Shown here: positions 6,064-63,782 of the stretch, one piece after another
Position numbering within the stretch: the stretch's first letter is position 1
Layout: the number at the start of each line of letters is the position of its first letter
From: a virus
Length of the DNA stretch: 64,000 nt
Virus record (IMG/VR): IMGVR_UViG_3300036770_003925
Location: 1-64,000 of that record
Strand: one strand, 5' to 3'
Notes under the pieces: model-generated
Told to the model about the DNA's origin: nothing
What the model saw: only the letters and a program-made list of their open reading frames with translations
Database searches by the model: none
Program-made: the position numbers and the translations under genes

Positions 6064-6391
6064 TCATGTAATTATTTGGGAAGCCCCAAAGATTGAAAAG
6101 CCCGAATTTCGTTTATATTATGATGACAACGGTAAAGTAATATGTTATACTTGTGATAAGTTACCAGGTAAATATATAATTATTGACGCGGCTACGTTTG
6201 CAGAATCAAGACCTGACGTTAGAGTATTAGAAGGAAAACTAGTTAGGACTTCAGAAATTCAAGTAATTAGTAAGTTAGTTCCGTCACTAGATTCACCTAC
6301 CGTATATTGCCATGAAGATGATATTGCTATTATTGTGAGCATGGATTGTAAACAAAAGAAAGGATGGAAATATAAAACATATGAGTTGTGA
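6050..6391 (+). CDS. Conserved phage protein, 113 aa
   Basis: Overlaps the previous gene by 14 nt and the next by 11 nt, so it is tightly coupled. It begins METHDHVIIWEAP and continues with a beta-rich fold (RLYYDDNGKVICYTCDKLPGKYI). Similar short proteins accompany glycosyltransferase-like genes in T4-like aquatic phages, but I know no function for them. Confidence 0.55.
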   Translation: METHDHVIIWEAPKIEKPEFRLYYDDNGKVICYTCDKLPGKYIIIDAATFAESRPDVRVLEGKLVRTSEIQVISKLVPSLDSPTVYCHEDDIAIIVSMDCKQKKGWKYKTYEL

Positions 6392-8758: not shown

Positions 8759-8765
8759 GAATGCG

Positions 8766-13372: not shown

Positions 13373-13432
13373 TATAACAGGTTATAAAAAGATATTTTCT
13401 CTAAAGCAGTCATAAAAATACAGGTAATTGGC

Positions 13433-13440
13433 TATAAATA
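13433..13440 (+). promoter_or_regulatory. T4-like late promoter (perfect TATAAATA)
   Basis: TATAAATA 15 nt before the ATG at 13456 with the Shine-Dalgarno AAAGGA between. It restarts transcription inside the radical SAM island after an 83-nt gap. Confidence 0.7.
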
Positions 13441-13455
13441 TACAAAGGACAGAGC

Positions 13456-15500: not shown

Positions 15501-15501
15501 T

Positions 15502-18560: not shown

Positions 18561-18922
18561 ATCACCAAAATATTCCCGTAGTTTTTTCTTTCTTTTACCG
18601 AGTCATTTAATTTTTCTGCAATAATATTTTTAAGATGGTATCTTTCTTCCATTATGTCACGCAAATGTAAAGCTCTACGTCCTACTTCTTCCAAACTATA
18701 TAGTTTTTCAACACGGTATTTTTTGAAATCATCTTCAAGTTCCCATACAGCTTTATGTACTTCGTAAAGTCTTTTTAATTCTGTGTCTATTTTGGACAAG
18801 TCAATTTGTTTTACTTGATCTATGTAAAAATCAAGTTCTTCTTTATTATTACCTAATTTGTCAAACTTAAGTTTGGCTATACAATATCTATCAACTAACT
18901 CTATTACTGGAAATTTAAACAT
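18557..18922 (-). CDS. Small helical protein of sugar clusters (DUF6165-like)
   Basis: 121 residues, strongly helical and charged. The start VIELVDRYCIAKLKFDKLG resembles short DUF6165-type proteins found in polysaccharide clusters; this match is from memory and weak. The start is set at ATG 18922 rather than a TTG three bases upstream. It overlaps the C-methyltransferase stop by 8 nt and the SGNH-like start by 4 nt, so it is coupled to both. Confidence 0.5.
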   Translation of the reverse strand: MFKFPVIELVDRYCIAKLKFDKLGNNKEELDFYIDQVKQIDLSKIDTELKRLYEVHKAVWELEDDFKKYRVEKLYSLEEVGRRALHLRDIMEERYHLKNIIAEKLNDSVKERKNYGNILVI

Positions 18923-20102
18923 CAATTTGTACCTTTGGAAAATATTTTATATAACGATCATTATCATTTTGTCTTACTTTTTTGATTCTATAACGTATCT
19001 CATTAAAAAAGTTCCAAGCCAATGGAATAAACAAAATCTTTTCATCAATATTATTTAATATATCAATAGACACAATTGGAATTTTCATTCCCGGGGTATA
19101 AGTTCCTTGTTTCAACTCATTATCATCAATGATATAATCAAGCTTTACTTTGATATAATTTAGTAAAGTGTTACCTTTAGCTGCTGCTCCGTACCCAATA
19201 ATTTTATAATCTTTGCGATATGTAACCAATGTTTCTTGCAAATATTGCATGTTAGTTTTTATTGTGTTTTCCCAATGTTGATATATAGTCAAGTTATCAA
19301 GTTGTTCACACGCTATAGCATTTTGAATTCTATAATGGTTGCCATTCTTAATACCTAAAATGAACACGTAACTAGTACCATGTATTGGAGTTCTAATAAC
19401 GTCAACAAATGCTAATCCTGCCCGTTCAACACATTTTTTCATACTATTGATATTAAAAAAGTTAATATGTTCGTGATATATAGTATCAAACTCATTATTT
19501 AAAACCATGTTAGCTTGACTAGTTTGTATAAACAATAAACTATGTTCTCCCATTAATTTTCTACATTCCAATAAAAAATCTAAAGGATTAGGATTGTGTG
19601 CAAAAACGTTTTGGGCAGTGATTGCATCAAATGTTTGGTTTATTGTTTTATATATATTTTTCTTAAAGTAATCACATGTAATGGTATGATGTAATGAACT
19701 TGTTTCATATAAATTTTTGGCTGGGTCTATACCAAATGTATTGTAACCCAAGTCTCTAAAGTAGTTAAGTTGTGTTCCGTCGTTACACCCTATATCTAGT
19801 ATACTATTGTATTTTTTTGTAATAGTTTCATTTACAAAGTTTGCAAACCATTTTGAATAATCACGTAGTGTTTGTGTAGTTCCGCTTACATAAAGATAAT
19901 TTTCATAAATTATAGACGGATCAACAATGTGTGTCAGTTGTAAATGATAACAATCATGACATAAATTTACACAAAGTGGATAGAGGTTATCAGTATCATC
20001 CACTTTTTTTAAATAGTTGTTAGCTAAGGGTTGTTTTCCTAAATCTAATGACTTGTGTATATTTTTACTACCGCAGGCTAAACATTTTGTAATTTTTTTC
20101 AT
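18915..20102 (-). CDS. Sugar C-methyltransferase (three-domain, Zn-binding)
   Basis: 395 residues in the order typical of NDP-deoxysugar C-methyltransferases (TylC3-like). An N-terminal zinc-binding domain has C-x2-C (CLACGS) and C-x2-C (NLCHDC); a SAM-binding Rossmann core follows with ILDIGCNDGTQL and FGIDP; a C-terminal domain has IGYGAAAKGNTLLNY. YHEHINFFN near residue 200 is the conserved catalytic-loop region. It would methylate a dTDP/UDP-sugar and pairs with the upstream epimerase. Confidence 0.8.
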   Translation of the reverse strand: MKKITKCLACGSKNIHKSLDLGKQPLANNYLKKVDDTDNLYPLCVNLCHDCYHLQLTHIVDPSIIYENYLYVSGTTQTLRDYSKWFANFVNETITKKYNSILDIGCNDGTQLNYFRDLGYNTFGIDPAKNLYETSSLHHTITCDYFKKNIYKTINQTFDAITAQNVFAHNPNPLDFLLECRKLMGEHSLLFIQTSQANMVLNNEFDTIYHEHINFFNINSMKKCVERAGLAFVDVIRTPIHGTSYVFILGIKNGNHYRIQNAIACEQLDNLTIYQHWENTIKTNMQYLQETLVTYRKDYKIIGYGAAAKGNTLLNYIKVKLDYIIDDNELKQGTYTPGMKIPIVSIDILNNIDEKILFIPLAWNFFNEIRYRIKKVRQNDNDRYIKYFPKVQIDV

Positions 20103-20969
20103 TTAGTAATTTATAAAATTATTTCTATCACCTGTTATAATAGGTGTATTATTAAGTAAATCTTCTACGATTGTTGCTACAGAATCCTTGAATTTAAAAT
20201 CAAAAGTTTGTTCAAAGTTTATGTTATCAAAATAAAAATCATATGGATTACTAGTATCAATTTCATATTGTATGGGTACATTTAATTTTTTTGAAATATC
20301 TTGTGCTATACCTTCTACAGTGCTATTAAAGCTACATAGGTTGTATATTCCGGTTACCGGTTTTAATAAAATTTTATTGATTCCTTTAGTAAGATCATTA
20401 ATACCCAATATTGGGCGTCTTACTTTTACGTTATTAATAGTAATTTTCTGCTGTGTTGTAGCTGATCTAACCATTGCGTTTATCATTAATTCATTGCGTA
20501 AGTTAGGACTATGTCCGTTAACAGTACCTAATCGTAACCCTATAATAGTTCGTTCTTGCATAAATTGTTGGCTGTGCAAATCCAATATATACTTTGTTAA
20601 ATCATAATTATTGGTAGGTAAAAATAGATTGTCATCATTATGTGTGTAAATGCTTCCGCTGCTAGCGTAAATTATAACTTGATGTTTACTACAGTTTTTT
20701 ACTAGATTTAAAAAATTGTATACATTGTTTTTATAGCTCGCTTGAATAGGACCATCACACATTTTAACACTACTATGTCCTGCTAGCAGGATTATGCTAT
20801 CAAATTGTTTTAAAAAACTACTATCTATATTTTTGTAGTCCATTGGGATTGAATCATTGATCGTTCCGTACCAATTAATATCAATTCCAGTCACGTTGTA
20901 ATTTTCTAACAACTTTTTATAAAGTTCAGATCCTATGTATCCATTAGATCCAATTAATAAAATATTCAT
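20103..20969 (-). CDS. NAD-dependent sugar epimerase/dehydratase
   Basis: 288 residues of the extended short-chain dehydrogenase type. The NAD motif GSNGYIG (G-x2-G-x2-G) lies at the N-terminus, IDINW carries the cofactor-binding acidic residue, ASSGSIY carries the catalytic Ser, and the Y-x3-K pair is YDLTK. First gene of the minus-strand operon, one base upstream of the C-methyltransferase. It probably makes or remodels the nucleotide sugar used by the island. Confidence 0.8.
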   Translation of the reverse strand: MNILLIGSNGYIGSELYKKLLENYNVTGIDINWYGTINDSIPMDYKNIDSSFLKQFDSIILLAGHSSVKMCDGPIQASYKNNVYNFLNLVKNCSKHQVIIYASSGSIYTHNDDNLFLPTNNYDLTKYILDLHSQQFMQERTIIGLRLGTVNGHSPNLRNELMINAMVRSATTQQKITINNVKVRRPILGINDLTKGINKILLKPVTGIYNLCSFNSTVEGIAQDISKKLNVPIQYEIDTSNPYDFYFDNINFEQTFDFKFKDSVATIVEDLLNNTPIITGDRNNFINY

Positions 20970-20977
20970 ATAAAATT

Positions 20978-20993
20978 TATTTAGCTATAAATA
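20978..20993. promoter_or_regulatory. Back-to-back divergent late promoters
   Basis: On the plus strand TATAAATA at 20986-20993 serves the ATG at 21015. On the minus strand GCTAAATA (20985 to 20978) serves the epimerase starting at 20969. The two motifs abut with no gap. Confidence 0.55.
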
Positions 20994-21014
20994 CTCTTAT
21001 TCTGAGAAAATAAT

Positions 21015-21131
21015 ATGAAACATTACCTAAAAAAAATTTATCAAGCTCTCTTTGGTAAACTAATAAGAGAATATAAATTTCGGAAAAAGCTTAGAGAAAT
21101 TAAAAAAAGAGATCCTTTTATTTATAAATAA
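21015..21131 (+). CDS. Small basic phage protein, 38 aa
   Basis: A 38-residue, very basic peptide (MKHYLKKIYQALFGK... ending KKRDPFIYK). The RDPFIY ending is one I recall from tiny proteins scattered through T4-like aquatic phages. The late promoter at 20986 fits it and the stop lies 1 nt before the next start. Function unknown. Confidence 0.6.
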   Translation: MKHYLKKIYQALFGKLIREYKFRKKLREIKKRDPFIYK

Positions 21132-21132
21132 C

Positions 21133-21774
21133 ATGACTAATATAAAAGATATATTAATAATAGGTGATAGTTTTGCCACAGACAGGGACCCAAACAATTC
21201 TTGGCTTGGCGTTTTAAATAAATGTTTTATGGCTGACCTAAGGGGCGCCGGATACCCTGGTAATTCTTTTTGGCCAGTAAGAAATTTGTTTCATGAAGAA
21301 ATTTCACAGAAAGTTCCTGACCTTCTTATTTTATGTCATACTTCCTACTATAGATATCCTTGCAAGGATAACAAATTTGGAGGATATAGAAGCGGCGATA
21401 AAGTTTTTACTACGTGGTATGAAAACTATTTTAATTTTGATTTTCACCTTTGGGCTAACATTAAATGGTACGAAGAATTAGATAATGCGCTTACAACTTA
21501 TAACATACCTTATGTTATTCATTTTTTTTGTTTCGAAGAGGATACTAGGAACTATAAGTTTAAAAATGGAATTACAAGTGTAGAAGATTTATACAGTATT
21601 CAAAAAATATGCGAAAAGCTTCATTCGTGTGACCCCTGTCTGATACATAATCATTTTTGTTATGAAGATAATATTAAAATCGGCAAGAAACTTCATGAAA
21701 AAATCAATCATATTGAACCTTATTTAAACGGGTGTATAATCGATTTTGAATTATCAAAAATATATGAAAAATGA
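21133..21774 (+). CDS. SGNH-hydrolase-like protein
   Basis: 213 residues with ILIIGDSFATDRDP at the N-terminus, the GDS catalytic block of SGNH hydrolases. GYPGNSFW follows near residue 40, a Gly/Asn oxyanion pattern. No clear C-terminal D-x2-H block was found, so activity is uncertain. Coupled to the carbamoyltransferase by a 4-nt overlap. Confidence 0.6.
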   Translation: MTNIKDILIIGDSFATDRDPNNSWLGVLNKCFMADLRGAGYPGNSFWPVRNLFHEEISQKVPDLLILCHTSYYRYPCKDNKFGGYRSGDKVFTTWYENYFNFDFHLWANIKWYEELDNALTTYNIPYVIHFFCFEEDTRNYKFKNGITSVEDLYSIQKICEKLHSCDPCLIHNHFCYEDNIKIGKKLHEKINHIEPYLNGCIIDFELSKIYEK

Positions 21775-23246
21775 ATTTTATTGGTATCAGCAACGGATTT
21801 CATGATGCAGCAGCTAGTATAATAAATGAAAACGGCAATATACTTTTTGCAGGGCATAGTGAGCGTTATAGTAAAATAAAACACGATAAAGATTTATCAG
21901 TTGGACTAGTTAATGATTTATTGAATTATGCAACAGACCAATCTACAATTCATTATTATGAAAGACCAATATTTACTTCTTTAAGGCAACTTATTGCAGG
22001 TCAGTCTGTTGATTTTGAAACAGTGAAAACTAGAATAGGTAAAACGTATCTAGAAACGATTAAACCTCAAAGAATTTACGCACATAATCATCATTTAAGT
22101 CATGCCGCTGCGGGGTTTCAAACCAGTCCATTTAATGATGCCACTGTAGTTATTATCGATGCTATTGGAGAACTTGATTGCATATCTATATGGAAAGCTT
22201 ATTATGACATAGATGGGTATGCACGTTATAAAAAATTATATTCAAAAAAATATCCTAATAGTATAGGATTGTTTTATAGCGCAATGACACAAAAGGTTGG
22301 ATTAAAACCATTAGACGAAGAATATATATTGATGGGTATGAGTGCATACGGGACTCCTAAATACACAGGTGATATGCTAAAGTTTTTTGATAATGTTAGT
22401 AACATTGAATTTAATACTAATCTACATATTGGCTGTGATGAAAGTTTTTTACCTGATGCAGACGTAATGGATATAGCAAGTAGTGCACAAATGGTTACCG
22501 AACAACTTATAGAGTTTGTAATTAGTAAAGCAAAACATTTAGGTAATAGCAATAATTTAGTTTATGGTGGAGGTGTAGCGTTAAATTGTTTAGCCAATCG
22601 CAATTTAGGAAACTTTTTTGATAACATTTGGATTATGCCCAATCCAGGTGATGCTGGTAGTAGTTTAGGCGCCGCTGCATTGGGTTATAGGAAAAGAGTA
22701 GAATGGATTAACGCATTTTTAGGTTATGACATTAAGGGATCATATCCGACCAATCAGATTATAGATGGATTGTTAAAAGATAAAATAGTAGGAGTTGCTA
22801 ATGGACGTGCAGAGTTTGGCCCACGGGCATTAGGCAATCGTAGTTTATTGGCAGATCCACGTGGTCAAGAAATTAAAGATAAGGTCAATGAAATTAAACG
22901 TAGACAAAAGTTTAGACCATTTGCACCAGTTATTTTAGAAGAATATGTTGATCAATATTTTGTAATGCCTAACGGATTTAATACAAGTCCTTATATGCAG
23001 GTAGTTGCAAAGTGTAAGAAACCAGAGTTGTTTCCTGCAATTATACACCATGATGGGACGAGCAGAGTGCAAACCGTAGGTAAAGATAATACAGGAATAC
23101 GTGAATTATTAGAAAAATGGTACATCCTAACTGAATGTCCAATGTTATTAAACACTTCACTTAATATACGTGGTGAACCAATGGTCAATGATAGAACTGA
23201 TGCAGATCGTTTTGAAAAACTATATGGAGTAAAAGTCTATTCATAA
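21771..23246 (+). CDS. Carbamoyltransferase (NodU/CmcH family)
   Basis: 491 residues. N-terminal FIGISNGFHDAAASII and AHNHHLSHAA are the metal/carbamoyl-adenylate site of the Kae1-like domain. VYGGGVALNCLANR and NPGDAGSSLGAA complete it. The C-terminal domain shows GRAEFGPRALGNRSLLADPR and FRPFAPVIL, hallmarks of the family. It transfers carbamoyl from carbamoyl phosphate to a sugar hydroxyl. Full-length N- and C-terminal domains are present, slightly shorter than typical NodU. Confidence 0.85.
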   Translation: MNFIGISNGFHDAAASIINENGNILFAGHSERYSKIKHDKDLSVGLVNDLLNYATDQSTIHYYERPIFTSLRQLIAGQSVDFETVKTRIGKTYLETIKPQRIYAHNHHLSHAAAGFQTSPFNDATVVIIDAIGELDCISIWKAYYDIDGYARYKKLYSKKYPNSIGLFYSAMTQKVGLKPLDEEYILMGMSAYGTPKYTGDMLKFFDNVSNIEFNTNLHIGCDESFLPDADVMDIASSAQMVTEQLIEFVISKAKHLGNSNNLVYGGGVALNCLANRNLGNFFDNIWIMPNPGDAGSSLGAAALGYRKRVEWINAFLGYDIKGSYPTNQIIDGLLKDKIVGVANGRAEFGPRALGNRSLLADPRGQEIKDKVNEIKRRQKFRPFAPVILEEYVDQYFVMPNGFNTSPYMQVVAKCKKPELFPAIIHHDGTSRVQTVGKDNTGIRELLEKWYILTECPMLLNTSLNIRGEPMVNDRTDADRFEKLYGVKVYS

Positions 23247-30348: not shown

Positions 30349-30433
30349 AGGTAAAGTAGTATTGTAGGTATTGTTGTATGAAGTTGATGGAAAAGTGCTG
30401 CGGACGGGGGTTCAATTCCTCCCAGGTCCACCA
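30349..30433 (+). ncRNA. ssrA: tmRNA acceptor piece (3' half, lying upstream: permuted ssrA)
   Basis: The T arm is at 30406-30422 (stem GGGGG/CCTCC with one G-U, loop TTCAATT), preceded by the conserved GCGGACG. The 3' acceptor strand CAGGTCC is at 30423-30429, then discriminator A and encoded CCA at 30431-30433. The strand pairs over 7 bp with GGGCCTG at 30578-30584, including G3-U70, the alanine identity element of tmRNA. The 5' end of this piece is not fixed; it probably starts in the first bases after the ART-like gene. Confidence 0.88.
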
Positions 30434-30577
30434 AAAAGTAATTTAATGGAGTCAGTTAAAAAATTTATAGATAAACAATTAAACAAGATTGATATTGATA
30501 GACAACGAGAGTTGATTATAAAACAGGCTTGTGAAATTGATAAACAAACTGAAATAATCTCAAAGTTATTTTTTGAA

Positions 30578-30750
30578 GGGCCTGATTCTGGTTTCGACGG
30601 GGTAAAGAGTACGGATATGGACAACACGGTAGGCGATCTCCGTAAAAGAAGCAAATATAATAGACGCAAATGACGACTATTTTTATCAGGAAGTTAAGCT
30701 AGCCGCTTAACCCTGACGGGGCAGGAAAGGCCTTGTTATCAAACAAACCA
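30578..30750 (+). ncRNA. ssrA: tmRNA coding piece with proteolysis tag (permuted ssrA)
   Basis: Begins GGGCCTG, then GATTCTGGTTTCGACGGG, the near-invariant 5' signature of tmRNA. The tag reading frame runs from GCA at 30666 to TAA at 30708-30710 and encodes ANDDYFYQEVKLAA, ending LAA as degradation tags do; the upstream AATATAATAGAC matches the usual region before the resume codon. A CCTG/CAGG hairpin follows the tag. The piece ends before the terminator. Placement after the acceptor piece, with a 144-nt intervening segment, makes this a two-piece tmRNA. It would rescue stalled ribosomes and mark the products for proteolysis. Confidence 0.9.
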
Positions 30751-31865: not shown

Positions 31866-32747
31866 ATGAAAAAACTTTTATTAGCAACGTTAGTTACGGC
31901 AGTATTTTCAGCAGCGGCAAGTGCACAAGTTGTAGTAAGTGGTAAGATCAACAAGACATTTGACCGTACTGAAGTTGGCACAACTTCAAACAATACAGTT
32001 TGGACTGATCCAACTAGTAATATTGCAGTAAGTGTTACTGAAAAGATCGGTGGAATGACAGCCCGTGGCGTAGTAGAAACAAGCCTAAGTGGAAACACAT
32101 TTGGTACAAGTGATACACGTTTAGGTGATCGTCAAACTACAGTTGGTTTGGCAGGTAGTTTAGGAAGTGTAGACTTTGGACGCAATGTTCATAGTCATTT
32201 TATTAATATTACCAGCAATGATGTATTTGGTACACTATATGGAAGCGTAGCAGGAGATGTACATCCATTGCATGGATTGCGTATGAGTGATGCAATGTTT
32301 GTTGCAATGAAGCCAACCAAAGATACAACTGTAATGTTAGAGCGTACACAAACAGGTAATCAAGAAATTACTGTATATGGTGCTAACACAAAGGTTGCTG
32401 GTGTTAATGCAACATTAACACGCTATGATCAAGGCAGCACAAAGAGTACAACATTAGGTCTAGGAGCTAAAGGACCAATGAATACTGCATTGCATTATGT
32501 TTATAGTAATAATGAAGGCGTTATGAACGGTAAGGCTCACTTGGTCGGTGCAGCCAAACGCCATGATAACTTTACTATGAAAGCAAGCTATGGTAAAAAC
32601 GATTTAGATGTTAAAGCATACTCAGTTGGTGCTGATTATCATCTAAGCAAACGTACTGATGTTACAGTAGCCTATCGTAATGTTGATAGAGCTGGTGCTG
32701 CATTTGACGTTTCACAAGTTGGTGTAGGTATCACACATCGTTTTTAA
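31866..32747 (+). CDS. Outer-membrane porin (betaproteobacterial type)
   Basis: 293 residues. A Sec signal peptide MKKLLLATLVTAVFSAAASA precedes QVVVSGKINKTFDR, the first beta-strand as in Gram-negative porins. Typical phrases follow: TRLGDRQTTVGLAGSLGSVDFGRN and LSKRTDVTVAYRNVD. The C-terminus, VGVGITHRF, has the terminal Phe needed by the BAM insertion machinery and the HRF ending usual in Burkholderiales porins. It is shorter than most trimeric porins (about 350 residues). It probably came from a host. It could replace a receptor porin or widen nutrient uptake. Confidence 0.85.
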   Translation: MKKLLLATLVTAVFSAAASAQVVVSGKINKTFDRTEVGTTSNNTVWTDPTSNIAVSVTEKIGGMTARGVVETSLSGNTFGTSDTRLGDRQTTVGLAGSLGSVDFGRNVHSHFINITSNDVFGTLYGSVAGDVHPLHGLRMSDAMFVAMKPTKDTTVMLERTQTGNQEITVYGANTKVAGVNATLTRYDQGSTKSTTLGLGAKGPMNTALHYVYSNNEGVMNGKAHLVGAAKRHDNFTMKASYGKNDLDVKAYSVGADYHLSKRTDVTVAYRNVDRAGAAFDVSQVGVGITHRF

Positions 32748-32996: not shown

Positions 32997-35900
32997 ATGG
33001 ATATTAAAGAACTACACTCATTCCGTCTAGGTGACGCTGTTAAATTTCAAAACGTACTAAACCCTAAACTTTTTAAGGGTAATCGTCTTGATCCTGCTGT
33101 AAAAAATCAACTAATAACTATATCAAAAGACTTTTTAACTGAATTGGGTGTTGGTGATGTTAAGGTAAAAGATATTACGATATCAGGATCTAATGCAGCT
33201 TATACCTATACCCCAAACAGTGACTTAGACTTACATATTATTGTTGACTATAATCAATTCCCCAATGATAATGTATACAAAGAATTGTTCAATGCTAAGA
33301 AAAATCTATATAATGATAGTCATAATATAACGATTCGTGGCATTCCAGTTGAAGTATATATGGAAGATAGCAGTGAACCAGTAATTAGTGTTGGTGAATA
33401 TAGTGTATTGAAAGATAAATGGAATCAAATTCCAACTAAGCGTAGAGCAAATTTTGATCAAACAACCACCAAAGCCAAATATGGTAAGTTAAATGATTTT
33501 ATTCTAAGAGCACTGAAAGAGAAAGATAGCAAAAAGATATCTAAAGCATTAAAGATTATTAAACGTTATAGACAGGCAGGGTTGGATAAAGGTGGTGAGT
33601 TTAGTCCTGAAAATTTAGCCTACAAAGCACTACGTAGTCAAAAAGCCATTGAAAAACTATACAAGTTACGTGATGAGTTACATAGTAGAGAATTAAGTAT
33701 TGAAAATATGTATACTGAGGCCAAACTTGAATCAGATAAACCTATTATATACTTTGATATGGATGGTGTGTTAGCTGACTTTAACGGTGGGTATGAAAAA
33801 CTATTTAATAAGCAACCAAGTGATAGTGCTAGAGATGATCCTAATGTAGGTAAGTTAGTTGGTAGTGATTTTTTTGCCACACTCAATAAATTACCAGGTG
33901 CTGATGCTTTAATTAAAACTGCTGTACAATTGTTCGGTGGATATAGTATATGTAGTAGTCCATTGCGTAATGATCATAAAAATAGTGAATTGAATAAAAG
34001 ATATTGGATTACAAAAAATTTAAACCCACAACCTGAGAACATAGTAATAACTGGTAAGAAAGATAGTTATGCTAAGGGTAAAAATGTATTGATTGATGAT
34101 AAGCCAAAGAATATTATTCCATGGCGTGAACGAGGTGGTATTGGTATATTATATAATGCTTATACTGACAGTATAAATGATGTGATTGAACAATTAAAAC
34201 AAATTGCTAGTCAAATTGATGAAGATATTCCAGTAACACAAGGCCCAACTCAAAAACAACGAGCAGCAGCAATAGCTAAGACACAACCTAAATTAGGAAG
34301 TGGATACTTTGGTAAAGTTTATGATCAACCAGAAGGGGAATTGGGTATTGGTACAGCAAAGAAAATATCTAGATTTGACCAAGATAAACCATCAATGGAC
34401 GGTTATTACGCATATATTAATAGGTTAATGTCATTAAAGGATCAGAACGATAATCCTTATTTACCCCAAGTTTACAATGCTAATGTAGTAAAGCCTAAAA
34501 GAGGTGCGCCTTATTTTGAACTAGACATGGAAAAGTTAAGTAAATGGGAAGACCTTGATGAAGATGAATTGCTAACAATTTTTAGTAGAGCATTAGATGT
34601 TCAACTTGATAGTATAGAGGACTTTAGACAGTTAGTTGGAAGAAAAAGTATTCCTTTTAAAGATATTATAATGACAGAATTGTTGCGTTATATTACTAAA
34701 ACTTTAAGTGATCCTAACTATAAAGATATAAAAGGTAATAGTATTAAAGATCCGCAACTAATTGAAGCAATTAATATTATTAGATATTTAGAAAAGACAG
34801 GTTATGGAGAAGATTTGCATGCGGGTAACATTATGGTACGTAGAACAAAATACGGACCACAACTAGTATTTACTGATCCATTATCATTTGGTAGTCAAAG
34901 AAAAATTGATCAGGTAGGGCAAGGAAAGATTCGTGTTAACACGATTGGCATAACAGTTCCACCTGATTATTTTGTATATGCTTACGATAAGTTTAATAAT
35001 AATGCTGTAGAAATTGAAAAGATGTATGGTAGTTATGATGAAATTAAAAAAGAAGTTCGTCAAAATTATGATCCATATTGGTATGATGTTGAAATTATAG
35101 CTAATGATAGAAAATTATATAATCCAGCACAACCACCAAAACCAAGAAAAGTTCCTACAGGTGCCGAACAGATTCCAGCAACTACGACCCGAGAAAAAGA
35201 AGCTAGAAATAAACAGCACAGTCCTAAAAAGTATGTTGTATATGATCAACCAAAGAATGCTCCTCCATGGCAAACTAAAAAGATGATTGGAAGTGTTAAA
35301 GCAACTAGTGAAAATGAGGCATTGCGATTAGCTAGACAAAAATTTCAAAATGTCCCTCCTCATAAAATTAGCGTGATGATTGATATAATGCCAAGTGATT
35401 CTGGTAATAAACTTGATGAAGAAGATGATTACAGTATAGAGGGTAGAGAAATTGATAAAAGACTTAAAGCAGCTGGATATAAAAAATTGGGTGCTGGTGC
35501 AGAAGCAGCAGTTTACATAAGAGATCAAGGATCCGTAATTAAAATCATCATGCCTGATTTAGAAGATATGAAAAATTTGAACAGAGATTTTTACAACGCA
35601 GAGAAAACTTTTTTAAATTTCTATAACTTTGTTAAAAAAAATAAAGGTAATCCATTCTTACCTAAGTTTATTCCTATACAAGGAAAAGATTATACTAGAT
35701 TTAAAATTGGAGATAGAACATTCTTGCAGATCAGTATGGAGCAACTATACCCATACAAGAAAAATTCATTAGAAGAAGCTATTGTTTGGGCTTTTAGCGA
35801 GTTTGCTGCTAGTAAAATGCCATGGTCGGAAGTTGAAGATAATATGGGTAATCCTGAGACTTTTGAATATTTTGGTGATAATCCACAACAAGATTACTTC

Positions 35901-36659
35901 AAAGCAAAAAACACTAAGCCTTATAGTTTTTCCAAAGCTTGGCAAACACTTGCCATGACTGATAAAAATAAGTTACAATATTATCAATTACTTTATGAAA
36001 CAATGGCAACATTATATACCTATGGTAGAGCAAACAATATGGGTTGGGACTTACATACTGATAACGTAATGCGTAGAAAAGATGGGACATTAGTCATTAC
36101 TGATCCATTCTATGGCTTTATTAATAATAAGTTAAACGAAGAAAGAATGTTGTCTGAAAATAATCCAAGTATGGACGAGAAAGAAGGTCTAGATTGGGAA
36201 AGAAAATTAATGAGATCATGGGCTCCAAAAGCAGCAATACATATGGCTAAGGTTGTGAAAGATTCATTTAACAGTTTGTATCCCAATGTGCCAATTCGGG
36301 TAAGGCGAGAAGATATTTTTATAATGGCTACAACTGATCCTAGTGCTGATATTCGTAATCTTGATATAGATGTTTTTAGTCAGCGTGACAACCCTAATTG
36401 GGAATGTAATTTCATAGTTAGTCCGCTTTACTTTAGGGATGATAGGAAGCCCTATCTTGAACTAATGGTGGATTCTGCTGCCAGTGGTCAATATAAGGGT
36501 GTATGGAAATTGATAGCACAAGGCTGGGCAAGGTATGCCAACAGCCAGTTACAAAAAACTAATGCCAAAGCAGTAGTTTTTTCAGTAGATGAAGACCATA
36601 GTGATGCTTGGGCAGTTATTGCTAATCAAGCAGGTCTTAAGTTTATAGTTCATAATTAA
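32997..36659 (+). CDS. 1220-aa fusion: nucleotidyltransferase, HAD phosphatase, two kinase-like domains
   Basis: Domains in order. (1) Pol-beta-type nucleotidyltransferase with GSNAAYTY and SDLDLH at residues 64-80. (2) HAD phosphatase like 5'(3')-deoxyribonucleotidases: YFDMDGVLADF near 250 and LIDDKPKN near 367. (3) Kinase-like domain: KLGSGYFGKVY near 431, DLHAGNIM near 604, then FTDP. (4) Second kinase-like domain: KLGAGAEAAVY near 831, DLHTDNVM near 1016, then ITDP. (5) An uncharacterised C-terminal domain from about 1060. In both kinase-like domains HxxN and TDP stand where protein kinases have HRD and DFG. It is followed 2 nt later by a head-targeting-type gene and may itself be injected; this is inference. 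Confidence 0.75.
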   Translation: MDIKELHSFRLGDAVKFQNVLNPKLFKGNRLDPAVKNQLITISKDFLTELGVGDVKVKDITISGSNAAYTYTPNSDLDLHIIVDYNQFPNDNVYKELFNAKKNLYNDSHNITIRGIPVEVYMEDSSEPVISVGEYSVLKDKWNQIPTKRRANFDQTTTKAKYGKLNDFILRALKEKDSKKISKALKIIKRYRQAGLDKGGEFSPENLAYKALRSQKAIEKLYKLRDELHSRELSIENMYTEAKLESDKPIIYFDMDGVLADFNGGYEKLFNKQPSDSARDDPNVGKLVGSDFFATLNKLPGADALIKTAVQLFGGYSICSSPLRNDHKNSELNKRYWITKNLNPQPENIVITGKKDSYAKGKNVLIDDKPKNIIPWRERGGIGILYNAYTDSINDVIEQLKQIASQIDEDIPVTQGPTQKQRAAAIAKTQPKLGSGYFGKVYDQPEGELGIGTAKKISRFDQDKPSMDGYYAYINRLMSLKDQNDNPYLPQVYNANVVKPKRGAPYFELDMEKLSKWEDLDEDELLTIFSRALDVQLDSIEDFRQLVGRKSIPFKDIIMTELLRYITKTLSDPNYKDIKGNSIKDPQLIEAINIIRYLEKTGYGEDLHAGNIMVRRTKYGPQLVFTDPLSFGSQRKIDQVGQGKIRVNTIGITVPPDYFVYAYDKFNNNAVEIEKMYGSYDEIKKEVRQNYDPYWYDVEIIANDRKLYNPAQPPKPRKVPTGAEQIPATTTREKEARNKQHSPKKYVVYDQPKNAPPWQTKKMIGSVKATSENEALRLARQKFQNVPPHKISVMIDIMPSDSGNKLDEEDDYSIEGREIDKRLKAAGYKKLGAGAEAAVYIRDQGSVIKIIMPDLEDMKNLNRDFYNAEKTFLNFYNFVKKNKGNPFLPKFIPIQGKDYTRFKIGDRTFLQISMEQLYPYKKNSLEEAIVWAFSEFAASKMPWSEVEDNMGNPETFEYFGDNPQQDYFKAKNTKPYSFSKAWQTLAMTDKNKLQYYQLLYETMATLYTYGRANNMGWDLHTDNVMRRKDGTLVITDPFYGFINNKLNEERMLSENNPSMDEKEGLDWERKLMRSWAPKAAIHMAKVVKDSFNSLYPNVPIRVRREDIFIMATTDPSADIRNLDIDVFSQRDNPNWECNFIVSPLYFRDDRKPYLELMVDSAASGQYKGVWKLIAQGWARYANSQLQKTNAKAVVFSVDEDHSDAWAVIANQAGLKFIVHN

Positions 36660-56752: not shown

Positions 56753-56770
56753 TTGTAATAATTCTGTAAT
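56753..56770 (+). promoter_or_regulatory. Pho box 1 (PhoB site) before phoX
   Basis: TTGTAAT-AATT-CTGTAAT: two 7-bp direct repeats separated by 4 bp, the PhoB pattern. TAATAT (56781-56786) lies 10 bp downstream, where the -10 of PhoB promoters sits. ATTGACA 11 bp upstream continues the 11-bp period. Confidence 0.8.
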
Positions 56771-56823: not shown

Positions 56824-59028
56824 ATGAATGATATTGAAAACACCTCTAATAATAAACATTTAAGTGAAATTATTAGTGAGATGATGATTAATCCTAATCG
56901 CCGTAATTTCTTAAAAGGAAGTTCGGCTTTTTTAACGGCGGCGACAGGGGCAACTTTAGCAGGCTGTGCTAGTAGTGATGATGATCTACTACCAACACCT
57001 AGCACACTGAGTTTCGAAGCAGTTCCAAAGAACACCTTTGACAAGGTTACATTGCCCCCGGGTTATCAATTCACAGTGCTACATGGCACAGGAGATAGGC
57101 TAGTCAGTACTATCCCTGCCTATTCAAACAAGGGCGTGGAGACAGATGATTGGAGTCAGCGAGTAGGTGACCACCACGATGGCATTGAATTATTTCATAT
57201 TGATGCCAATGGTAAGTATACTACACAGATGACTGGTCGTGCTGTGTTGGCAATGAATCACGAAAGTTCAGCAGACGCACATTTTTTCCATCCCCATGGG
57301 CAAACCAGTAACGGTCAAAATGGTAAAAAGTTTGATCAGTTTGGTCAATGGGATTTGGGTGTTCGTCCCGGATTAGAAGTATTAAAAGAAATCAATCACC
57401 ACGGTGTCAGTCTCGTGGAGATTAACAAGGGTAGCACAGGTTGGACATACAAGGTAGATAGCGGATTAAATAGAAGGGTTACGGCACAAACTCCCGTGCG
57501 AATCAGCGGACCGGCCGCAGACATGGCTAACATAAAAGGTTTAATGTCTACCAAATTTGATCCAACAGGTGCTACTGCTCGAGGCACATTAAACAACTGC
57601 GGCACAGGGTCTACACCTTGGGGCACCATGTTGACCTGTGAAGAAAACTGGGCTGTATATACTCATATGCCCAAAGGCAGCAATCCAGTAGATGCCAGAC
57701 TGGTTCAAACTCGCAAGCGTTATGGCGTAGCAGCAGAACCACTATCCGGTAGTGCCACAGCCAGCACCAGTCAAGGATGGCATACTCCTTCAGACCTACC
57801 CGACACAGGCCTGCGTTTTAGTCGCTGGGATACCAGTGCTCGTGGAGCCACAGCACATGAAGACTTTCGCAATGAACCACATACTTTTGGTTACAATGTA
57901 GAAATTGATCCTCTCAATCCCAATGCTCAACCAGCCAAGCGTGTGGCCATGGGTCGTTTCGCACACGAAGCCGCTGTATATGGTAAACTAGAAGCAGGTA
58001 AGCCTGTGGTGTTTTACATGGGCTGCGATAGTCGTAATGAGTATATCTATAAGTTTGTCAGTGCTCAACCTTGGAACCCTGCTGATGTAGGCGGCGGTAT
58101 GGCTGCTGGTGACAAATATCTCAACGAAGGTAAATTGTATGTGGCCAAGTTTAACAATGATGGAACAGGCACATGGATTGAATTGAGTATTGCCAATCCT
58201 GCTATTGCCAACTATGCCACATTCAAATTTAATAATCAAGCAGAAATATTTGTATTCACTCGCATAGCCGCTGATGCTGTAGGTGCTACCAAGATGGATC
58301 GTCCAGAGTGGGGTGCTGTAAATCCTGCCAATGGCGAAATCTATTTTGCCCTGACCAACAACTCAGCCAGCAATCGCACTCCAATGACCACAGATGGTGC
58401 CAATCCAAGAAGTTATGCTGATCCTGATGGCAACAAGCGCACAGGCAATCCCAATGGACATATCATTCGTTGGCGTGAGACTGCTACAGGATTTCAATGG
58501 GATATCTTCTTGTTTGGTTCAGAAGAGGACAATGCTTCCAGTAACATTTCAAAACTCACTGCCAAGAATTCGTTTAGTAGCCCAGACGGATTGTGGTTTA
58601 GCAAGGCCACAGGTCTTTGCTGGATACAGACAGATGATGGTGCGTTTACAGATGAAGTACATAATCAACTGTTAGTAGCCATTCCTGGTCGGGTAGGAGA
58701 TGGTGGGGCTCGAACCATTACCAATACACTAAGCGGTGCTACTAAAGATCAGGCCACATTTGTGGGTGCTGAATTAGGTGAGACCAAACTGCGTAGGTTC
58801 TTAACTGGCCCAGCAGGTTGTGAAATTACTGGTATTGCTGAGTCAGCAGATGGACGCACTATATTTGTCAATGTTCAGCATCCAGGCGAGGACACAGAAG
58901 CCACTTTCTGGAAAGGATCTGCTCCACAAAGTCAATGGCCAGCCAATCAAGGCTATGGATCACAAGGTCGTCCGCGTTCAGCCACTTTGGTAATCACCAA
59001 GGTTGACGGCGGACTAATAGGCGTATAA
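56824..59028 (+). CDS. phoX: Alkaline phosphatase PhoX (DUF839), Tat-exported
   Basis: 734 residues. A twin-arginine signal RRNFLK (26-31) and a lipobox-like LAGC (45-48) suggest an exported, perhaps lipid-anchored enzyme. PhoX hallmarks: MLTCEENWAVY, FYMGCDSRNEYIYKFVS, RPEWGAVNPANGEIYFALTNN and TGPAGCEITGIAESADGRT. It removes phosphate from organic phosphates using Ca/Fe. Codons are visibly richer in G and C (GCC, GGC) than in neighbouring genes, which suggests recent transfer from a host. Preceded by Pho box 1 and AGGAG. Confidence 0.9.
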   Translation: MNDIENTSNNKHLSEIISEMMINPNRRNFLKGSSAFLTAATGATLAGCASSDDDLLPTPSTLSFEAVPKNTFDKVTLPPGYQFTVLHGTGDRLVSTIPAYSNKGVETDDWSQRVGDHHDGIELFHIDANGKYTTQMTGRAVLAMNHESSADAHFFHPHGQTSNGQNGKKFDQFGQWDLGVRPGLEVLKEINHHGVSLVEINKGSTGWTYKVDSGLNRRVTAQTPVRISGPAADMANIKGLMSTKFDPTGATARGTLNNCGTGSTPWGTMLTCEENWAVYTHMPKGSNPVDARLVQTRKRYGVAAEPLSGSATASTSQGWHTPSDLPDTGLRFSRWDTSARGATAHEDFRNEPHTFGYNVEIDPLNPNAQPAKRVAMGRFAHEAAVYGKLEAGKPVVFYMGCDSRNEYIYKFVSAQPWNPADVGGGMAAGDKYLNEGKLYVAKFNNDGTGTWIELSIANPAIANYATFKFNNQAEIFVFTRIAADAVGATKMDRPEWGAVNPANGEIYFALTNNSASNRTPMTTDGANPRSYADPDGNKRTGNPNGHIIRWRETATGFQWDIFLFGSEEDNASSNISKLTAKNSFSSPDGLWFSKATGLCWIQTDDGAFTDEVHNQLLVAIPGRVGDGGARTITNTLSGATKDQATFVGAELGETKLRRFLTGPAGCEITGIAESADGRTIFVNVQHPGEDTEATFWKGSAPQSQWPANQGYGSQGRPRSATLVITKVDGGLIGV

Positions 59029-59064: not shown

Positions 59065-60072
59065 ATGAAAAAATTATTATTAACATTAGCAACATCATTT
59101 TTTGCTTTTACAGCACAGGCAGCAGAGATTACAGGGGCAGGGGCAACCTTTCCCTATCCTATCTATGCTAAGTGGGCTGAAGCATATAACAAAGCAACAG
59201 GTAATACTCTAAACTATCAAAGTATTGGTAGTTCAGGTGGTATTCGCCAAATCAACAACAAAACGGTGTCATTCGGGGCAAGTGATGCTCCAGTAAAAGG
59301 AGAAGACCTTGACAAATTGGGACAAGTTCAATTCCCTGCTATCATCGGTGGTACTGTACCTGTTATCAATCTTGATGGTTTTAAGCCAGGTGAACTTCGT
59401 ATCACAGGACCTGTTATGGCAGAAATGTTTATGGGTAATATAACTAAATGGAATGATCCAAAATTTGCAGCCCTTAACCCAGGTAAAAAGTTACCCGATA
59501 TGAATATCACTGTGGTTCATCGTGCTGATGGTTCTGGCACCACATTTAACTGGACTGACTACCTTACTGTGATCAGCCCAGAGTGGGAAAAGCGTGTGGG
59601 TCGTGGTGCTGCTGTAAAATGGCCTGCTACCAGTTCAGTAGGAGGAAAAGGTAACGAAGGTGTTGCTGCCAATGTAAATAGAATTAAAGGCAGCATAGGT
59701 TATGTAGAATATGCATATGTTAAAAAGAATTTGATGAATTATATGCTGTTACAGAACCTGGCTGGTAACTTTGTTGCCCCTGATGATACAACTTTCGCAG
59801 CGGCCGCAGCGGGAGCAGATTGGTTCTCAGTTCCAGGAATGGGCTTGAGTATTGTAAATCAGGGCGGCAAAGATACTTGGCCTGTTACAACAGCAAGTTT
59901 TATTATTATGTATAAAGAACCTGCAGACAAAAAAGCTAGTCAAGAAGTCATCAAGTTTTTTGACTGGGCATTCAAGAACGGCAAGAAACTTAGTGAGGAA
60001 CTCGATTATGTTCATTTACCAGACAAATTACAAAATGATATCCGTAGTAAAGTTTGGAATCAAATTAAGTAA
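59065..60072 (+). CDS. pstS: Phosphate-binding periplasmic protein PstS
   Basis: 335 residues. Signal peptide ending AFTAQA, then EITGAGATFPYPIYAKW, the signature N-terminus. Phosphate ligands lie in IGSSGGIRQI and SFGASDAPV; HRADGSGTTFNWTDYL and TSSVGGKGNEGVAANV are family blocks. It binds phosphate for the PstCAB transporter, which the host must supply, as no transporter genes are here. Probably co-transcribed with phoX (36-nt gap). Confidence 0.95.
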   Translation: MKKLLLTLATSFFAFTAQAAEITGAGATFPYPIYAKWAEAYNKATGNTLNYQSIGSSGGIRQINNKTVSFGASDAPVKGEDLDKLGQVQFPAIIGGTVPVINLDGFKPGELRITGPVMAEMFMGNITKWNDPKFAALNPGKKLPDMNITVVHRADGSGTTFNWTDYLTVISPEWEKRVGRGAAVKWPATSSVGGKGNEGVAANVNRIKGSIGYVEYAYVKKNLMNYMLLQNLAGNFVAPDDTTFAAAAAGADWFSVPGMGLSIVNQGGKDTWPVTTASFIIMYKEPADKKASQEVIKFFDWAFKNGKKLSEELDYVHLPDKLQNDIRSKVWNQIK

Positions 60073-60090
60073 TTGTCATAAAATTGTAGT
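60073..60090 (+). promoter_or_regulatory. Pho box 2 before the plcP operon
   Basis: TTGTCAT-AAAA-TTGTAGT: again 7-4-7, starting in the base after the pstS stop. A candidate -10 (TGATAT or TATCCT, 60101-60109) follows. Confidence 0.75.
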
Positions 60091-60161
60091 AATAAAAAAT
60101 TGATATCCTTGTAAATAGTGTTGAGAGTCACAAGCTCTCAATACTAACAAGGAGTCACAAA

Positions 60162-60377
60162 ATGAAACTTGAAATGCGTGCCTGGGATCTAGATGTCAAA
60201 TTGGAATTAGAAGATGATGACAGTCTAGACCAATTACAGGTTTTGGATACAGTAAAGAATTTACTTGAAACATTAGCACAGTATGAAAAGGTTGATATAA
60301 CAATTAAACAATTATATACTGAAGAAAATGTTCAAGACCGTCATATTGAAGATGACGATCACGATATAATGGCTTAA
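60162..60377 (+). CDS. Small acidic protein of the Pho island, 71 aa
   Basis: MKLEMRAWDLDVKLELEDDDSLDQLQ... ending HIEDDDHDIMA; acidic, alpha/beta, with AAGGAG before the start. First gene after Pho box 2. Unrecognised; may serve the lipid genes behind it or be an unrelated phage protein. Confidence 0.5.
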   Translation: MKLEMRAWDLDVKLELEDDDSLDQLQVLDTVKNLLETLAQYEKVDITIKQLYTEENVQDRHIEDDDHDIMA

Positions 60378-60400
60378 GTAGTACAGGTTCTCCTAATGAA

Positions 60401-61183
60401 ATGGTTTATAACGCTATCTTTATATCAGATGTACATTTGGGCACGAAGGGATGTAAGGCAGAACTTTTATCAAATTTTCTAAAACATAATTCTTCAACAA
60501 AGTTATATCTTATAGGTGATATAATAGACGGCTGGAAGATACAACAAAATAAATGGGTCTGGAAACAGACCCATTCCAATGTAATACGCAGGATATTAGG
60601 TCTTGCTAAACGGGGCACAGAAGTAGTGTATGTATTAGGTAATCATGATGAGTTCATCAGACCATTATTACCCTACAACATAAATTTTGGTAAAATCAAA
60701 ATAGCAAATCAATATACCCATAGTGGTATTGATGGCAAGAAATATTTAGTGGTACACGGAGATTTATTTGATGGAATAACAAGATTAGCTCCATGGATAA
60801 GTTTTTTTGGAGATAAAGCATATGATGTTCTTTTATCACTTAATACCCAGTTTAATCGTATTCGTCACCGTTTTGGCTTCGGCTATTGGAGTCTTAGTCA
60901 ATATCTTAAGCACAGAGTTAAACGGGCTATGGATTTCATTTTTAGATTTGAGAATAATTTGGCTGATTATTGTATTAAGCGTGGGTTTGACGGAGTTATA
61001 TGTGGTCATATACATCATGCTGAAATCAAAACAATTAAAGGTATACGATATATGAACGATGGAGATTGGGTAGAAAGTTGTACAGCATTAGTAGAACACA
61101 CAGATGGTAGTTGGGAAATAATTTATTGGACAAAGGAATTGTTAGATGTGGATATTGTTTCTAATAGTGGTCAACATATATGA
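60401..61183 (+). CDS. plcP: PlcP-family metallophosphoesterase (phospholipid remodelling)
   Basis: 260 residues of the COG2908 calcineurin-like fold. Metal ligands: SDVHLG (D10, H12), GDIIDGW (D40), GNHDE (N81, H82), VVHGDLFDG (H119) and CGHIHHAE near 205. The ending MNDGDWVESCTALVEH matches the PlcP branch as I recall it, rather than short LpxH enzymes. PlcP is a phospholipase C that turns membrane phospholipids into diacylglycerol under phosphate limitation. The Pho box and the adjacent GT4 gene support this over the LpxH reading. Confidence 0.7.
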   Translation: MVYNAIFISDVHLGTKGCKAELLSNFLKHNSSTKLYLIGDIIDGWKIQQNKWVWKQTHSNVIRRILGLAKRGTEVVYVLGNHDEFIRPLLPYNINFGKIKIANQYTHSGIDGKKYLVVHGDLFDGITRLAPWISFFGDKAYDVLLSLNTQFNRIRHRFGFGYWSLSQYLKHRVKRAMDFIFRFENNLADYCIKRGFDGVICGHIHHAEIKTIKGIRYMNDGDWVESCTALVEHTDGSWEIIYWTKELLDVDIVSNSGQHI

Positions 61184-61349
61184 CCCAACTGACATTCCTG
61201 GAAGAATACAACTACAATTTAAAGATGAAGTTACTTGTAGTGTAGCGTTACAAAACATGAATTATTGGGTTAAGTTTTCTTGGTTTAAAGTAGAGGGTAA
61301 ATGTGAAAAAAATACTGATAGTAACAGACAATATACGAGACCAAATTAA
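61146..61349 (+). CDS. Small membrane-anchored phage protein, 67 aa
   Basis: MWILFLIVVNIYDPTDIPGR starts with a short membrane helix; FKDEVTCSVALQNMNYWVKF follows. Comparable tiny proteins occur in T4-like phages. It overlaps plcP by 38 nt and the glycosyltransferase start by 47 nt in another frame. No function known. Confidence 0.5.
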   Translation: MWILFLIVVNIYDPTDIPGRIQLQFKDEVTCSVALQNMNYWVKFSWFKVEGKCEKNTDSNRQYTRPN

Positions 61350-62295
61350 TGGAGTGGTCACAACATACAAAAATTTGGAGGCGTATGCGCTTCGGGATGG
61401 TTATACTTTTGTTTATATTACTCCCGATGAGTTCCGCTACTTTGATTGCCCTATCTATAACGAAGTCAAGATTGCCTATCCAAAGAAAATGGGCGAGAAG
61501 ATTGAGGAGATCAATCCACATCATATCCACATCGCCACAGAGGGTCCTGTGGGTTTGTGGGCTAGAAAATATCTTACAAAATCTCATACTAGGTATAATA
61601 CTGCTTACCATACTAAATTTCCTGAAGGATTGGAAACCCTTTTGGGAATTCCTGAGTCCATTACTTGGCGCTACATAAAGTGGTTTCATAAACATACGGG
61701 AAGAGTATTAACTACTACTCCAAGTATGGTTGAACAACTTAGACAAAAGGGTATAAAAAACCTTGTTTCTTGGACTAGAGGGGTTGACAGAACTATTTTT
61801 TCTAGTAAACTACGCAATAAGTCATCAGAAAAACTAAATCTTGTTTGTGTAAGTCGTGTTAGTAAAGAAAAAAATTTAGATGATTTTTGTAGTCTTAAAT
61901 ATTTTCATGCACATAAAATTTTAGTTGGTGACGGTCCTTATCGTAAAGAACTTGAAAGTAAATATCCTGATGTTGAATTTGTTGGGTTTAAAACAGGAAC
62001 TGAATTGGCAAGTTATTTTGCTAATGCAGATGTATTTGTTTTTCCAAGTCGTTGGGAAACTTTTGGAATAGTTATGATAGAAGCAATGGCATGTGGTACA
62101 CCAGTAGCTGCCTATCCATGTCAAGGCCCAATTGATGTAGTAGACCATGGCGTAACAGGATTTTTAAGAGATAATTTAAAACAGGCAATAACTGAATGCC
62201 TTACATTAGATAGATACGATGTTGAAATTGGTAGTAAGAAGTATGATTGGGAAAATGCTTGGCAAATATTCAAAAAGAATTTATTAGAGGTATAA
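61303..62295 (+). CDS. GT4 glycosyltransferase, probable diacylglycerol glycosyltransferase (Agt-like)
   Basis: 330 residues from GTG, with AGAGGG upstream. N-terminal Rossmann half MKKILIVTDNIRDQINGVVTT with the Gly loop and IHIATEGPVGLWAR. C-terminal donor site: VSRVSKEKNLDDF, VGDGPYRKEL, VFPSRWETFGIVMIEAMACG, the E-x7-E signature of GT4. The MPG-like start and ATEGPVG block resemble diacylglycerol glucosyltransferases. Next to plcP this fits Agt, which makes glycolipids from the diacylglycerol PlcP releases. The acceptor is inferred. Confidence 0.75.
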   Translation: MKKILIVTDNIRDQINGVVTTYKNLEAYALRDGYTFVYITPDEFRYFDCPIYNEVKIAYPKKMGEKIEEINPHHIHIATEGPVGLWARKYLTKSHTRYNTAYHTKFPEGLETLLGIPESITWRYIKWFHKHTGRVLTTTPSMVEQLRQKGIKNLVSWTRGVDRTIFSSKLRNKSSEKLNLVCVSRVSKEKNLDDFCSLKYFHAHKILVGDGPYRKELESKYPDVEFVGFKTGTELASYFANADVFVFPSRWETFGIVMIEAMACGTPVAAYPCQGPIDVVDHGVTGFLRDNLKQAITECLTLDRYDVEIGSKKYDWENAWQIFKKNLLEV

Positions 62296-62296
62296 A

Positions 62297-62515
62297 ATGG
62301 GTGATTCGGCGGGTGGGTTTTTAGGAGTCTTTGAGCAAAGAGTAGGACAGTTACGAAAAAGACTCAAAGATGAATTAGAAAAAGATAAACCTATCCGCTG
62401 TCGCAGAACGCTTAAGAAAATAATTAGAGAAATTAAAGAATGGGAAGATGTACTACATCAACATCGTAAAGATTCGAAAAGATGCCCACATTGTGGTGAA
62501 AAATTAGATTTTTAA
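62297..62515 (+). CDS. Small zinc-ribbon-like protein, 72 aa
   Basis: Long basic coiled-coil helix (VGQLRKRLKDELEKDKPIRC) and a C-terminal CPHCGEKL knuckle. One base after the glycosyltransferase stop. Only one C-x2-C pair is present, so zinc binding would need a partner. Function unknown. Confidence 0.5.
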   Translation: MGDSAGGFLGVFEQRVGQLRKRLKDELEKDKPIRCRRTLKKIIREIKEWEDVLHQHRKDSKRCPHCGEKLDF

Positions 62516-62587: not shown

Positions 62588-63181
62588 ATGAAGACAGTAG
62601 GACACACAATTGAGCCTTTCGCAATGACAGGCGTAAAACCAGGAGCATTAACACCAGACAATGCTTTTGAAACAATCACAGAAAAAAGTTTTGAAGGTAA
62701 ATGGAAAGTAATCGTTTACTATCCCAAAGATTTTACATTCGTTTGCCCCACAGAAATTGTAGCGTACGATAAACTTAATAATGATTTTGCAGACCGTGAT
62801 GCTGTATTACTAATTGGTAGTACTGATAATGAATTCTGTAAATTAGCTTGGCGTAACGCACACGAAGATTTGAAGAAAACAAATAGTTGGATGTTTGCTG
62901 ATACTGCCCGTGAAGCGGATGAGCGTTGGAATAACGACAAATCAACCTATGACAAACACCAACATGAAGGACTTGCTCAACAACTTGGTATTTTTTATAA
63001 ACCAGCTGGAGCAGCACTAAGAGCAACATTTATCATTGATCCAAACAATGTTATTCAACATGTTACAGTGAACAATTTGGATGTTGGTCGTAACCCAGAT
63101 GAAACACTGCGTATACTAGACGCATTACAAACTGGTGAATTATGTCCATGTAGTCGTCCAATTGGTGGCGAGACTCTGTAA
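62588..63181 (+). CDS. ahpC: Peroxiredoxin (AhpC family)
   Basis: 197 residues. Thioredoxin fold with the peroxidatic Cys in DFTFVCPTE (C53), Thr in the same block, and resolving cysteines in GELCPCSRP (C186, C188). Reduces hydrogen peroxide and organic peroxides. The reductant is probably AhpD, encoded 86 nt downstream. Confidence 0.92.
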   Translation: MKTVGHTIEPFAMTGVKPGALTPDNAFETITEKSFEGKWKVIVYYPKDFTFVCPTEIVAYDKLNNDFADRDAVLLIGSTDNEFCKLAWRNAHEDLKKTNSWMFADTAREADERWNNDKSTYDKHQHEGLAQQLGIFYKPAGAALRATFIIDPNNVIQHVTVNNLDVGRNPDETLRILDALQTGELCPCSRPIGGETL

Positions 63182-63270
63182 TGAAAGTTTGGCTGTTAAT
63201 AATAATAACCTTATTTTTAACAGCCGTAATAGCAATAACAATAGTAGAACATTTTAAAGAAAAAAAATGA
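63181..63270 (+). CDS. Tiny membrane peptide, 29 aa
   Basis: MKVWLLIIITLFLTAVIAIT, then VEHFKEKK: one membrane helix and a basic tail. It is linked to both neighbours (shared base at 63181; ATGA overlap at 63267), so it is translated with ahpC and ahpD. Function unknown. Confidence 0.5.
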   Translation: MKVWLLIIITLFLTAVIAITIVEHFKEKK

Positions 63271-63782
63271 ATTGGATTGAACAAATCAAGCAAAGTATTC
63301 CTGATCATTGTAAAGATAACAGATTAAATCTTGACAGTGTTATGAATCGTAGTGGGTTAGATGAAGTTGATGCACATGCTTGTGCGTTGGCAGCAGCAAT
63401 TGCAGCAGGTAATGGTGAGTTAGCGTTTGATATTCAAATGAATGGCCCACTAAAAGGTACAGTAGAACGTGAAGCTGCAAAAACGGCAGCAGCATTAATG
63501 GGTATTAATAATGTATTTTATCCATTTGTTGAAATGTGTAATGATCCTGATTTAAAAGGGTTACCACCTGGATTACGTATGAATGCATATGCTAATCATG
63601 GAGGTGTTACAAAGAAACAGTTTGAGATGTATGCGTTAGCAGCAAGTATTGTTGGTAAGTGCCATTTTTGTGTTAAAAATCATTATGACACATTGAAAAA
63701 AGAAGGGCTCACTGTACAGCAATTACAGGCAATTGGTAAGATTGCCAGTGTAATTGCTAGTATTAATAAAATTGCTATTTAG
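63267..63782 (+). CDS. ahpD: AhpD-type alkylhydroperoxidase
   Basis: 171 residues of the carboxymuconolactone-decarboxylase fold with the active site KCHFCVKNHYDTL (C132, C135, H139). AhpD uses this C-x2-C pair to reduce AhpC. The catalytic Glu/His relay is expected near residues 118-139 (KKQFEMYALAASIVG). Complete in length. Together with ahpC it forms a self-contained peroxide-removal system. Confidence 0.88.
   Translation: MNWIEQIKQSIPDHCKDNRLNLDSVMNRSGLDEVDAHACALAAAIAAGNGELAFDIQMNGPLKGTVEREAAKTAAALMGINNVFYPFVEMCNDPDLKGLPPGLRMNAYANHGGVTKKQFEMYALAASIVGKCHFCVKNHYDTLKKEGLTVQQLQAIGKIASVIASINKIAI

Follow-up and report, generated by a model that had tools for sequence, protein, structure and literature searches.

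We found that a T4-type phage carries, in one gene cluster that appears to be controlled by phosphate, a PlcP-type phospholipase and an Agt-type glycosyltransferase (GT) that together probably replace phosphorus-containing membrane lipids of the host with sugar lipids. Hundreds of other uncultured viruses carry the same kind of pair, and we found no published description of this viral function in the literature we could search, which did not include subscription journals and preprints. The genes lie in the window (the whole stretch of DNA that was analyzed, 64,000 nucleotides), which is part of a 64,230-bp IMG/VR virus record (IMGVR_UViG_3300036770_003925). The record is viral: it encodes a T4-type terminase, UvsX, UvsY, a gp32-like single-strand binding protein, and a gp9/10-like protein.

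The phosphate-starvation unit is larger than had been described in the first-pass annotation, which had noted the phospholipase, the GT, and a Pho box before them. The unit is near the right end of the window, on the + strand, and begins with phoX (56824-59028; 734 aa; PF05787, 1.5e-126), whose product has a twin-arginine signal (NRRNFLK) and a lipobox-like LAGC. It is followed by pstS (59065-60072; 335 aa, with a signal peptide; over the cut-off for both PRK10918 and TIGR00975), a conserved acidic 71-aa ORF of unknown function (60162-60377), plcP (60401-61183; 260 aa, no signal peptide; Metallophos, 2.6e-11), and the GT gene (61303-62295; 330 aa, GTG start; hits to Glyco_trans_1_4, Glycos_transf_1, and Glyco_transf_4). 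The 71-aa ORF had no Pfam or PHROG hit and recurs next to plcP or the GT gene in 22 of 160 viral loci. A 72-aa ORF with a CxxC pair near the C-terminus (62297-62515, + strand), also without a Pfam or PHROG hit, is right behind the GT gene, as in close relatives. AhpC-like peroxiredoxin and AhpD-like genes follow (62588-63782), and the two recur together near plcP in a number of viral loci.

The metallophosphoesterase is a PlcP-type phospholipase and not LpxH. Its scores against two NCBIfam LpxH models were 43.9 bits (cut-off of 134) and 34.1 bits (cut-off of 190.35). It is 55.6% identical to a P. aeruginosa protein in the plasmid collection whose gene is followed by a GT gene and then an adenylate/guanylate cyclase gene, an order that fits the characterized PA3219-PA3218 PlcP-Agt1 operon (PMC8528852). 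It is 43.9% identical to an S. meliloti protein encoded beside AHL synthase and LuxR genes, in what appears to be the SMc00171 neighborhood. We assigned both locus names based on these neighborhoods. (The S. meliloti record, CP090106.1, is labeled plasmid pSymB but is 3.7 Mb and is probably the chromosome mislabeled.) In a maximum-likelihood tree of 87 proteins, five gammaproteobacterial LpxH proteins and one Bacteroides LpxH-like protein were on one side of a branch with support of 100/98, and the window protein, the other viral proteins, the bacterial homologues, and both reference PlcPs were on the other. The window protein was in a viral clade with support of 97/95. All seven dinuclear-metal ligands are conserved (D10, H12, D40, N81, H119, H203, H205). 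In addition, the window protein has His82 (GNHDE), and all PlcP-set rows of the alignment have His, where LpxH has Arg80 (GNRDF), a replacement reported to occur only in LpxH (PMC5016852). The predicted structure (pLDDT 80) had LpxH as its nearest solved fold, as expected for this superfamily; this comparison could not separate PlcP from LpxH because no PlcP was among the PDB sequence hits.

The glycosyltransferase is Agt-like. It is 35.6% identical over its full length to the Agt1-like GT beside the P. aeruginosa PlcP, and 35-42% identical to most GTs encoded beside bacterial plcP genes, but it matched E. coli WaaG, WaaB, WcaL, WcaC, and WcaI only in fragments. In a tree, it grouped with the plcP-adjacent GTs and not with these E. 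coli LPS/EPS enzymes. The E. coli outgroup branches are very long and the separating split had support of 85/95, so the full-length identity is the stronger part of this evidence. The protein has the EX7E motif of retaining GT4 enzymes (E252-E260). A search with the predicted structure (pLDDT 74, a model of modest quality) hit many GT4 enzymes without specificity. In alphaproteobacterial loci that were found using PlcP alone, nearly all of those examined outside the Hyphomonadaceae have a related GT gene next to plcP. Published work reports plcP with a downstream agt in more than 25% of the isolates analyzed and shows synthesis of MGDG and GADG by a SAR11 Agt in E. coli (PMC4796936). Thus, both tests that had been set for the initial interpretation, that the phospholipase should not fall in the LpxH clade and that the GT should not group with LPS enzymes, came out in its favor.

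The pairing of plcP with a glycosyltransferase gene is nearly obligate in viruses, but there are two alternative partners. Of 80 IMG/VR loci found with the GT4, 79 have plcP upstream, and the remaining one begins 69 nt before the GT gene and could not be assessed. Of 80 loci found with PlcP, 42 have the GT4 gene downstream, 31 have instead a gene for an unrelated GT2 of ~238 aa (PF00535), none has both, 4 have neither, and 3 are cut off. In a third scan that started from the GT2, 75 of 75 assessable loci have plcP upstream. The GT2 (for example, at 8898-9614 of viral locus L014) has only weak relatives (about 30% identity or less) in the plasmid collection, its best NCBIfam hit is an arsenosugar GT below cut-off, and it is a candidate for a new family of lipid glycosyltransferases. 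The type of partner changes repeatedly on a PlcP tree: 21 changes on the best tree, although well-supported branches force only 2. Exchange of two unrelated sugar transferases behind a conserved PlcP is what one expects if the common step is the addition of a sugar to the PlcP product, and supports diacylglycerol glycosylation.

Pho boxes are enriched upstream of the viral phosphate genes. We searched the 100 bp upstream of each gene for sites with at least 10 of 14 matches to CTGTCAT-N4-CTGTCAT. After removal of near-copies, such sites were found for 7 of 7 phoX, 14 of 27 pstS, and 34 of 107 plcP genes, compared to means of 0.2, 0.6, and 2.4 in shuffled sequences, and for 0 of 53 GT, 0 of 15 ahpC, and 0 of 12 ahpD genes. 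The upstream regions of 1018 other ORFs gave 3.5%. The upstream regions share ancestry and are not fully independent. As a positive control, the region upstream of P. aeruginosa plcP has overlapping 10/14 sites. The viral form of the box is (T/C)TGTAAT-N4-CTGTAAT.

The best Pho box in the window is before phoX. This site (56753-56770, + strand; TTGTAAT-AATT-CTGTAAT) ranked first of 127,966 positions (score of 21.0, next 13.8) with a matrix made from the phoX and pstS upstream regions of related viruses, excluding close kin of the window. It has 11 of 14 matches to the consensus, one of 6 such sites in the 64 kb, and the same sequence, or one with a single change, is upstream of phoX in relatives. 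The first-pass annotation had placed the Pho box at 60073-60090 (+ strand; TTGTCAT-AAAA-TTGTAGT), before the operon. That repeat is there, with 10 of 14 matches, but it is not the start of the operon and is weak by itself, as 44 sites of that score or better occur in the 64 kb on both strands. However, it ranked sixth of 127,966 with the matrix from relatives, and a Pho-like repeat is at the same position in several of them. Control by phosphate is supported by the enrichment across related viruses more than by this single site. Predicted Pho boxes in a cyanophage were not always bound (PMC10976474), and only about a third of viral plcP upstream regions have one.

The leader of the 71-aa ORF contains a conserved hairpin. 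A TAAATA sequence (60112-60117, + strand) that resembles the -10 box of T4-type late promoters is followed immediately by a hairpin with an 11-bp stem and a CACAA loop (60118-60144, + strand); the combination is present in 11 of 18 viral upstream regions of the 71-aa ORF. Across these 11 leaders, TAAATA is invariant, 96.2% of the base-pair cells are paired, and 39 cells are changed on both sides, compared to 10.6 in shuffled alignments; slid registers failed. The leaders were chosen because each has a hairpin, which favors the paired percentage but not the number of compensatory changes at shared positions. We infer that there may be a late promoter whose transcript starts with a stem-loop.

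Of 36 long contigs with plcP, 15 encode a T4-type terminase over cut-off, several on contigs of 200-353 kb, 13 carry pstS, and 11 encode a UvsX that is 76-97% identical to that of the window. Only six records in the cultured-phage collection matched PlcP, including Pelagibacter phage Mosig and Synechococcus phage S-SRM01, and in neither of these two is there a neighboring GT4. A contig filed as 'Muricauda sp. TMED12' has a GT inside the viral clade and a PlcP that joined with that of phage Mosig, and is probably a phage contig binned into a bacterial MAG; some contigs may be mis-sorted. We were unable to assign a host for the phage in the window. It has a complete Gram-negative porin gene (31866-32747; PF13609, with a signal peptide) for which we found no relative in the plasmid collection, although porin genes are near plcP in a few other viral loci, and its PstS was about 55% identical to both alpha- and betaproteobacterial proteins. 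The window also encodes a permuted tmRNA (30372-30710; RF04321, 107.8 bits; ARAGORN tag ANDDYFYQEVKLAA) and a 1220-aa protein that combines a deoxyribonucleotidase-like region and a protein-kinase-like region (32997-36659), and has a long run of host-like genes (4463-23246): a radical SAM protein, glycosyl/methyltransferase-like genes, an epimerase, and a carbamoyltransferase.

Based on these results, we believe with high confidence that the two genes encode a lipid-remodeling pathway under phosphate control, although no lipid was measured. We infer that when the infected host is short of phosphate, its PhoB activates the phage Pho boxes, PlcP removes the phosphorylated head group from membrane phospholipids and leaves diacylglycerol, and the GT4 adds a sugar to give a phosphorus-free glycolipid that keeps the membrane intact. 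The freed head groups, together with phosphate gathered by PhoX and PstS, would support synthesis of phage DNA. If an E. coli-sized cell has roughly 2e7 phospholipids and a genome of 140-350 kb holds 2.8-7e5 phosphorus atoms, then lipid phosphorus could supply some tens of phage genomes. We are less sure of this benefit, phosphorus supply rather than membrane upkeep, than of the pathway. We think it more likely than not that many uncultured T4-type phages carry out a complete conversion of phospholipid to glycolipid during infection, using a conserved PlcP with either of two unrelated GTs, the GT2 being a new family of diacylglycerol glycosyltransferases. In that case, sequences labeled lpxH in virome surveys would be lipid-remodeling genes.

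We considered whether the genes might instead alter lipid A or LPS, for instance to exclude other phages. Homologues are annotated in public records as UDP-2,3-diacylglucosamine hydrolase or diphosphatase, a Lake Baikal viral metatranscriptome lists lpxH (K03269) under LPS biosynthesis (PMC9611531; this may be the same family), and LpxH is the nearest solved fold. The window also has many surface-polysaccharide-like genes. However, the low LpxH scores, the separate clade, His82, the linkage to phoX, pstS, and Pho boxes, and the grouping of the GT with plcP-adjacent GTs make this very unlikely. It is also unlikely that PlcP acts on phospholipid while the GT serves another acceptor (glycan, protein, or DNA) and is merely co-transcribed. 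The specificity of GT4 and GT2 enzymes cannot be read from sequence, but the near-obligate adjacency in viruses, the adjacency in many bacteria, and the exchange of two unrelated GT families that never co-occurred in the loci examined argue against it.

It remains possible, although we favor it less, that the pair remodels lipids but that the gain is not phosphorus. Glycolipids or diacylglycerol might change membrane charge or curvature, for example to help lysis, block superinfection, or keep membrane proteins working. This alternative overlaps with our preferred explanation on the enzymes and differs on the benefit. Lipid remodeling is linked to phage attachment and membrane proteins in bacteria (PMC9938194, PMC9804370), about two thirds of viral plcP upstream regions lack a recognizable Pho box, and 23 of the 36 long plcP contigs, many of them fragments, show no PstS. 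On the other hand, plcP is linked to phoX, pstS, and Pho boxes in the window and in a large subset of viruses, and the same genes serve phosphate saving in bacteria (PMC4796936, PMC8528852).

The viral genes can be compared to several known systems. Cyanophages carry pstS and soil phages carry phosphorus-acquisition genes (PMC10987575), and control by host PhoB has been reported for cyanophage genes (PMC10976474); those genes take up or release phosphate, and no lipid-remodeling gene is named in the text of those papers. Pelagibacter phage Mosig (EXVC030M) encodes a PlcP-clade homologue (49.8% identical) next to a phosphate transporter gene, but without a neighboring GT4 and annotated as a putative UDP-2,3-diacylglucosamine hydrolase. 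LpxH (E. coli; P. aeruginosa, 5b49) has the metallophosphoesterase fold with a helical insertion and the seven metal ligands, but differs at Arg80 and is in a separate clade. S. meliloti PlcP (SMc00171) is in the same clade as the viral enzyme and has the same catalytic residues, but there is no GT gene beside it in the locus examined. The closest systems are the PlcP-Agt operons of P. aeruginosa (PA3219-PA3218; PMC8528852) and marine heterotrophs (PMC4796936), in which an orthologous phospholipase gene with upstream Pho boxes is directly followed by a related GT4 gene. The viral version is carried by a phage, is joined to phage-borne phoX and pstS, forms its own clade, and in many viruses has an unrelated GT2 in place of the GT4.
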